In this document: positions 24,717-27,700 of the stretch, in pieces
Position numbering within the stretch: position 1 is the first letter of the stretch
Layout: every line of letters begins with the position of its first letter
Source of the DNA: Deltaproteobacteria bacterium
Lineage (GTDB): Bacteria; Bdellovibrionota; JACOXK01; 2-02-FULL-40-11
Direction: 5' to 3'
DNA length: 38,920 nt
Assembly (NCBI GenBank): GCA_023248265.1
Contig: JAHFEZ010000005.1
Location: 1 to 38,920 of the forward strand
Program-made: the position numbers and the translations under genes
The notes under the pieces: generated by a model
Seen by the model: only the letters and a program-made list of their open reading frames with translations
Database searches by the model: none
Told to the model about the DNA's origin: nothing

Positions 24717-27700
24717 CTAAACATCCAGGTTTCTAACCCTCAGGGCATTGGTTTCAATAAACTCTCTTCTCTCGGCCACATCTTCGCCCATCAGAAGCGT
24801 AAAAATATTGTCGGCCTCTATGCCATCTTCTACTCGAACCTGAAGCATGGTTCTATTCTTGGGATCCAGGGTAGTTTCCCAAAGTTGCTCAGGATTCATT
24901 TCTCCCAATCCTTTGTATCTTTGAATATAGGCCCCTTTTTTGCTGGCATCAAACACCACTTTCACTAACGCTTCTAAATTCTCTACGGCTTGCGCCTCTC
25001 CATCTACGGCCACGTCCCACGGCGGGAGCCCAAGTTTTTCAAAATCTTTGGAAAGCCCCCTTAGCTCTTCTATTTCTGGAGAAATTAAAAACTGGTGTGT
25101 GAGTTCAAAAGTTTTCTTAATTCCCCCTCGGGTCGTAGATAAAATAACTTTGTATCCTGTGTGGGCTTCGTCTTTTTCTACTTTATACTCGCAGGCCGTG
25201 AGCACTTTTTGCTGTAAAAGCTTCTTTTGAAGAGTGCTTATTTCTTCTTCCAGGTGTTTAACGCTATGAAGAATTGTTTCTTTCCATTTCAAATTTAGGG
25301 CTATTTCTTTAACAATCGCATATTCTCTTTTTTTAGAAATTTTTTCCAAGTTCTTGATAAAGCGGCTTGCCGACTGAATGACTTCTTTTAAAATTGCTGT
25401 GGGAATAATTTTAGATTTTTGTTTAACAGTAACGCTTTCTAAACATGCATCTAGAAGAAAGTTTTCTAGGGCGCCTTCCGTTTTTAAATATTTTTCTGCT
25501 TTCCCTCTTTTAACTTTATATAGAGGGGGCTGTGCAATATAGAGATATCCTTTTTCAATTACTTGAGGCATTTGGCGATAGAAAAAAGTTAAAAGAAGTG
25601 TTCGAATGTGAGCTCCATCAACATCCGCATCTGTCATAATCACCACCTTGTGGTACCGCGCCTTTGTAATATCAAATTCATCTGTTCCAATTCCCATCCC
25701 CAGCGCTGTGATAAGAATTCGAATTTCTTCGGAACTAAGCATTTTTTCAAAGCGCGCCTTTTCAACATTTAAAATTTTTCCTTTGAGTGGAAGCACTGCT
25801 TGATTTTTTCGATCTCGTCCTTGCTTTGCGCTGTTGTGAACAAAAACACCGCTAGCTAAAGCGAAATTGTGAGTCCCCGGAACTTCTAAATCGTAAACGG
25901 CCACTGTATCTTTTAGAACCTCTATCCTTTTTATTTTATGATTATACTGTTTAACTGCCATTTCTAGCCTTTCATGGCTATTATCAAAATATCTCTCTAT
26001 AATTGTTTGCCCTTTGAGAAGACTTTTGTTGTTTGTTTGTTTTCTCATTTCTTCGTAGGTGTTCAGATCTACGACTCCCTTATTTTCATAAACAGCCCGC
26101 AGGGCCCTCAGTGCTTCGTGATAATAGGTCTTCCCATACGTTTCTTTTCTTTTCGCTCTAAATTCTTCTGTCCACTGTTCTTTTGTTTTTTGTCTCCGCC
26201 ATTTTTTAAGGACTTCGTCCTCCCATTGCTTTCTGGCCAATTCTGAAAGCCCATGGATTTTTTCTGGATGTTGCTGATAAAACTGTGTAACGCGTTGGGC
26301 TTGCTTTTCCCTATTTTCTTTATTGCCCCAATAGATTTTCTGGGCTTGTGCAAGCACCTCTCCGCTCTTCTCTCTATATGAAGGATTACTGTAATAAAAT
26401 TTTAAGAATTTATTTTTCATAAACTCTTTGTATTCGACGCTTTCCCATTGTTTTTTTGCTCTTTCGCTTAGCATCTTTCTTGTTTTAGGAGCCAACATTC
26501 TTTGGCGAATCTTTTCCTTAAACGCTGGTGTTTGTCTCAGTTTTTTTAACTTTTCTAGAACCTCTTTTGTGCGCAGCGTTTTTTGTGCGTGTTGGCGATG
26601 GAGCGCCAGATGCTCTTCGGTCGTAAGCCGCGTAATATTATCAGGATTGTTATTTAGCTTGTTAAAGTCTTTGTGATGGCGGTGGGCACCCTTGTCTTCC
26701 AAATAAACTTTCTGAGAAAGATTATGTTTGTCTGAAAGAACATGAGTAAAGAGCCATCGTTGCTCCCTCGGATCAAAAACCATTTCATATCCTTGAATAG
26801 TAATTCTTTTGCCCAGGCGAGAAAGTTGTTGATAAAGAGGCATTAAAGAATCTCGGGTCGTTAAAGACTGGGCTTCATTAAAAGTTCCATCAGATAACAT
26901 GAAAGGGTGGTCTGGCGTACAAATAATTTCTTCGTTGTTGTCTAAAACTACTTTTACAACACTTGCGTTCTTTTTTGTTAATCTGGGATTACAAATTTCT
27001 CCTACTTGGATAGAGCCGTTGGAAGCAATCGTATAACAATAATTTTTAATTCCCTTTCTATCTTCTTCAATTAATTCAAGAAAAGATGCTTTCCTCCCAT
27101 CTGCCAAGGCAACCCTTGTATCACCGGAGAAACACCCCCCCGCGCTGTCGCCTTCCACAAGAAAAAGTTCGCTCAGGGCTGGATCGCGTTCCTGGCAGTC
27201 CGCCATTTTTCCAGGGAGGCCTCCAAAATCCAGGGCTGTTTTTCTGCGCGTTAAATCTCTGGCTTTTCGCGCTGCAATGCGAGCACGTGCTGCATCAACA
27301 GCTTTTTGAGTTACAATGCGAGAAACTGAAGGATTTTCTTCAAAAAATTCTGTGAGTTTTTCATGGGTAAGTTGGGACACCAATCCTTTTACATTGCTAT
27401 TGCCTAATTTTGTTTTTGTCTGTCCTTCAAATTGAGGTTGAGAAAGTTTTACAGAAATAACAGCAACCAGCCCTTCTCGAACATCGTCTCCGGTCACTCC
27501 TTCTGGAATATCTTTTAAAAGACCTAGGGCCTGGGCAGCATTATTAATGGTTCGCGTAAGAGCGGTCTTAAATCCTATAAGATGCGTTCCCCCCTCAATG
27601 GTATTAATATTATTGGCATATGAACACATGACCTCGTTATAACTATCGTTATATTGATAGGCAGCCTCTACTTCGATATTGTCTTTTTTGGCAGAAAAAT

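Follow-up and report, generated by a model that had tools for sequence, protein, structure and literature searches.

A gyrB intein with a predicted HNH homing endonuclease in an apparent member of the Bdellovibrionota, and its mismatch with the host gene

The window, by which we mean the whole stretch of 38,920 nucleotides analysed here, has the gene order dnaA-dnaN-recF-gyrB, a ketoacyl-ACP synthase III-like gene and gyrA, as in an ordinary origin region. The gyrB open reading frame (24717..28439, GTG start, on the minus strand like all window features below) encodes 1240 aa and is interrupted by an in-frame segment of 434 codons without a stop (25833..27134; GyrB residues 436-869, CFSGDTR...GVFVHN). 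The segment splits the TOPRIM motif precisely at GG/SA (EGDSAGG/SAKQGR), separating an N-extein of 435 aa that ends in LVEGDSAGG (27135..28439) from a C-extein of 371 aa that begins with SAKQGRDR (24717..25832). A preliminary description had proposed an intact 434-aa intein running from Cys to His-Asn before Ser, whose removal restores GyrB exactly. We find its boundaries correct to the base, and computational excision reproduced both the junctions and the outcome, restoring EGDSAGGSAKQGR and leaving a normal 806-aa GyrB. Regarding the host protein, the whole sequence scores above the NCBIfam gyrB equivalog cut-off. The nearby gyrA (21203..23689) is uninterrupted, its site being empty where some Nanoarchaeota carry a related intein.

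A search for a Hint domain bore out the identity of the segment as an intein, with Pfam and NCBIfam intein models exceeding their curated cut-offs: Intein_splicing PF14890 (E 1e-20, 74.6 bits, cut-off 35.8), intein_Nterm TIGR01445 (41.1 bits, cut-off 24.5) and intein_Cterm TIGR01443 (32.4 bits, cut-off 15.6). The class 1 residues Cys1, the block B TxxH, the C-terminal His-Asn and the +1 Ser are all present, and are invariant or nearly so in an alignment of 40 inteins. Block A lies at 27093..27134, with Cys1 invariant in the 40; block B reads TPDH (residues 73-76, 26907..26918; T73 and H76 invariant); blocks F and G span residues 392-434 (25833..25961) and include His433-Asn434; and the +1 extein Ser, the predicted downstream nucleophile, is encoded by AGC (25830..25832). 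In keeping with a class 1 intein, precise in-frame excision gives a conserved host protein and empty sites occur among relatives. An AlphaFold model built with six sequences (pLDDT 48, pTM 0.33) was of a quality too low for a fold check or fold search. Relatives, including G004 at 100% completeness, have one GyrB-type subunit, so splicing is probably essential and unspliced GyrB would probably be lethal; the same search shows an extra ParE-like match besides GyrB in members of another family.

The interior of the segment carries an HNH core (residues 151-179, 26598..26684) that matches phrog_7545 'HNH endonuclease' (E 1e-9), a family also matched by 6 of 8 aligned relatives. Its residues H153, H154, N161, N162, P164, N166, H175 and H179 are invariant in the 40 inteins. 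These findings support the HNH-type endonuclease named in the preliminary description, although Pfam HNH_3 on the intein stays under its cut-off (E 0.005). The core is followed by basic helical repeats (residues 186-330, 26145..26579; invariant Trp/Gln positions W230, W269, W304, W312, W321), and then by a C-terminal endonuclease-associated segment, the least conserved part (residues 331-391, 25962..26144). The repeats are real by a narrow margin, the best internal pair, starting from residues 222 and 296, scoring 48 where the highest of 40 shuffles reached 46. Their earlier label of NUMOD3-type was rejected, as Pfam gave no NUMOD3 (PF07460) match up to E 10 in any of 8 members. In the congener G001 the repeat region is shorter by about 65 aa, with the frame, the HNH core and the splicing blocks preserved (L039:1006-2112), while a related GyrA intein of a nanoarchaeote (L188) has many more such repeats; repeat number therefore varies.

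Over the endonuclease, dN/dS is about 0.1 in four close pairs, the same as over the splicing domain, a value that marks the endonuclease as being under purifying selection. No LAGLIDADG-type Hom_end (PF05204) was found in the window's genome. That genome does hold a second intein, a LAGLIDADG_3 intein in a DnaB helicase (G000:C71:24434-25675; locus L003, 352-2958, minus strand; PF14528 E 3e-18, PF14890 E 3e-16).

In a GyrB tree the window's GyrB groups with named Bdellovibrionota, apparently the host phylum. A comparison with close relatives, suggested in the preliminary description, did turn up empty sites: within the class, five of eight genomes are occupied (the window's genome G000, G001, G002, G005 and G007) and the gyrB site is empty in G003, G004 and G006. 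Across a phylum sample of 340 genomes there is only one further carrier, G168, from a distant family in which 34 other members are without the intein. A scan of genome contigs with full-length GyrB likewise yielded mostly genes free of an intein. Around Cytophagales (342 genomes) we found four full-length and three shortened copies, one copy of the group sitting on a Bernardetia megaplasmid, and among 279 sampled Nanoarchaeota genomes more than 30 are carriers, with 45-59% identity to the window's intein. The junction is the same in all examined copies of this patchily distributed element, and mini-inteins occupy the same GyrB site in both Nanoarchaeota and Cytophagales. Besides its HNH intein at EGDSAGG/SAKQGR, the G168 GyrB (L136/L137) contains a second, unrelated-looking intein, apparently at another site. 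Likewise, a GyrB from a Nanoarchaeota bin (L050, 2021-7591) has three inteins: one close to the ATPase site, a second, reduced to a mini-intein, at EGDSAGG/SAKQGR and a third at TDAD/TDGAHI.

The window's intein presumably resembles the Synechocystis GyrB intein, a likeness that the preliminary description proposed and that is based on the listing of Synechocystis PCC 6803 among the hosts of a published allele. This monophyletic gyrB allele was described from Halobacteria, a further euryarchaeon and 19 bacteria, most of them cyanobacteria and among these the Synechocystis strain, and old long-distance transfers were inferred (Soucy et al. 2014, PMC4071816). Its hosts also include Methanomassiliicoccus, Allochromatium and Saccharothrix, spanning class and domain boundaries. 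By site, architecture and literature the window's intein belongs to this allele, as had been claimed; the host gene is the same, but Bdellovibrionota are absent from the published host list. The engineered Ssp GyrB split intein also splices a ...GG/SA... junction (PMC2794532), as found in the window's intein. In another study, 61 intein-containing archaeal GyrB sequences were set aside without analysis (PMC9348778). Both the allele and its passage between domains were thus known before; within the literature searched, what appears to be added here are the Bdellovibrionota and Nanoarchaeota hosts, the mismatch inside the genus and the codon pattern described below.

Among the relatives, the Nanoarchaeota (DPANN) GyrB inteins share the site, a length of about 430 aa and the same layout of HNH core and repeats, but their hosts are archaea, they comprise many other lineages and some are reduced to mini-inteins. 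The Bernardetia/Cytophagales inteins share the site and are 47-50% identical over full length, yet the intein tree sets them apart in a clade of their own, supported at 96/93. Scans of viral sequences with three bacterial inteins as queries, together with a phage collection, returned relatives of only 26-40% identity, all in other genes, and a viral vector carrying a close copy is not supported. These phage HNH inteins (portal-type L035-L038, the CL131 dCTP deaminase and SP-15) have the Hint domain and HNH core in common with the window's intein, whereas the endonuclease past the core is mostly not alignable. One of them, the cyanophage CL131 dCTP deaminase intein, was a match in these scans and is reported to self-excise in E. 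coli (PMC6293099). Two phage ORFs resembling portal proteins (L035, 3996-7196; L036, 782-4609) have two related inteins each, one of the two in L035 being a mini-intein. Nanoarchaeota GyrA proteins (L187 in G959, L188 in G904) carry an HNH intein at GQGNFG/S(I/V)DGDS with 36-45% identity to the GyrB one, and the repeat array of L188 is greatly expanded.

Comparison of intein and exteins reveals a mismatch inside the genus. Exteins of the window and of its congeners G001 and G002 are 90% identical and the intein only 59%; between G001 and G002, the values are 93% for exteins and 85% for inteins. Archaeal inteins come as near to the window's intein (up to 59%) as do those of its congeners. Because exteins so similar accompany an intein no closer than archaeal ones, the intein was probably replaced or separately acquired within the genus, on either the window's branch or the G001/G002 branch. 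Horizontal transfer had earlier been inferred from presence alone; this mismatch of distances now argues for it. A genus in which gyrB has barely changed and the intein is of a different lineage offers a concrete, testable case.

Vertical inheritance from the class ancestor, with fast evolution in the window's lineage and absences that represent losses, would be an alternative account, which we regard as unlikely. The ratio of intein to extein path lengths is 6.7-7.9 between the window and its congeners, against 2.1 between the two congeners and 0.5-2.5 in the other 28 closest pairs. Fast evolution by relaxation does not fit the low dN/dS in close pairs or the conserved catalytic residues. Furthermore, silent differences between the window and G002 reach 0.77 (0.70-0.84) in the intein but 0.63 (0.59-0.68) in the exteins, although silent sites are near saturation and the intein and extein ranges overlap for G001. 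In favour of vertical descent, the intein does not differ from its host gene in base composition or GC3, and tree topology does not contradict it. Bacterial copies are interspersed among archaeal ones and few deep branches are well supported; AU tests reject neither a single genus clade (p 0.20) nor a single class clade (p 0.35), and reject a single Nanoarchaeota clade only marginally (p 0.048). Topology was accordingly set aside as proof of transfer. In the comparison of inteins with host GyrB proposed in the preliminary description, distances were more informative than branching order. The flanks of the insertion are about 80% identical in nucleotides to the congeners on both sides, with no trend in identity between window and congeners, neither a local rise nor a drop, that would mark co-conversion.

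The codon for the +1 Ser shows a pattern of its own. It is AGY in 5/5 readable occupied genes of the phylum (G005 is masked at this codon), whereas each of the 26 empty genes from outside the class has TCN (AGY 0/26). These counts are per gene rather than per independent event, with perhaps two or three events behind them. Since no single mutation turns TCN into AGY, co-conversion of the flank with the intein likely explains AGY at the +1 Ser; alternatively, the endonuclease may prefer AGY targets. Within the class, two of the three empty genes (G003, where the codon is AGT, and G006) have AGY and the third, in G004, has TCG; G003 and G006 may have lost an intein, as expected if absences were losses from an intein-bearing class ancestor. 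Bacteroidota display the same trend weakly (AGY in 4/7 occupied and 0/8 empty genes). For Nanoarchaeota, AGY is present in 26/31 intein-bearing genes and in most empty ones, and the footprint is uninformative there, the empty genes having been found by a pattern that itself demands AGY at the neighbouring Ser. A more speculative thought, to which we lean less than to its contrary, is that circulation between DPANN archaea and Bdellovibrionota could be fast enough for replacement within a genus, and that the TCN-to-AGY footprint left by each invasion could outlast loss, making past invasions readable in empty genes. Together, the genus mismatch, the very large pool of archaeal carriers and the possible codon footprint would make it possible to measure how fast the intein is gained, lost and moved between domains at one conserved site.

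We are highly confident, judging from sequence features, that the window encodes a bifunctional class 1 intein in GyrB, pairing a self-splicing Hint domain with an HNH endonuclease that would home to intein-free gyrB. The Hint domain, through Cys1, the TPDH of block B, the C-terminal His-Asn and the +1 Ser, would excise itself after translation and ligate the GyrB halves, thereby rebuilding the TOPRIM motif. The HNH endonuclease is predicted to cleave intein-free gyrB at a highly conserved site, assisted by the basic helical repeats, probably through DNA binding, and repair would then copy the intein, along with a short stretch of flanking DNA, into the recipient gyrB. Different hosts share on average 32-33 of the 48 bases at the site, only about two thirds, so homing across phyla would require an enzyme that copes with silent changes.

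Slightly less plausible than vertical inheritance, in our judgement, is that the endonuclease is a relic, with the intein surviving through splicing alone or through a switch-like role in GyrB maturation. Decay of this kind is suggested by the shortened repeat region of G001 and by the same-site mini-inteins of Nanoarchaeota and Cytophagales. The window's copy, however, is full length, its HNH residues are invariant and purifying selection extends across the endonuclease, while the patchy distribution and the mismatch with hosts indicate continuing movement. The bifunctional intein remains our preferred reading. That the segment or contig is foreign to the organism, an artefact of assembly or binning, is highly improbable: the genome is fragmented (1.16 Mb, 61.6% complete) and the G002 and G007 contigs break within their inteins, yet the frame is continuous through both junctions, the flanks match the congeners on both sides, the contig carries its origin-region genes in order and the same insertion is present in independent assemblies. 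A search for a synonymous empty gyrB site elsewhere in the window's genome found none.

Contig breaks inside the gyrB intein affect two of the five occupied class assemblies, G002 (end of L007, start of L040) and G007 (L042 and L043), and may be caused by repeats or strain variation; the G007 contig continues into an unrelated reading frame.
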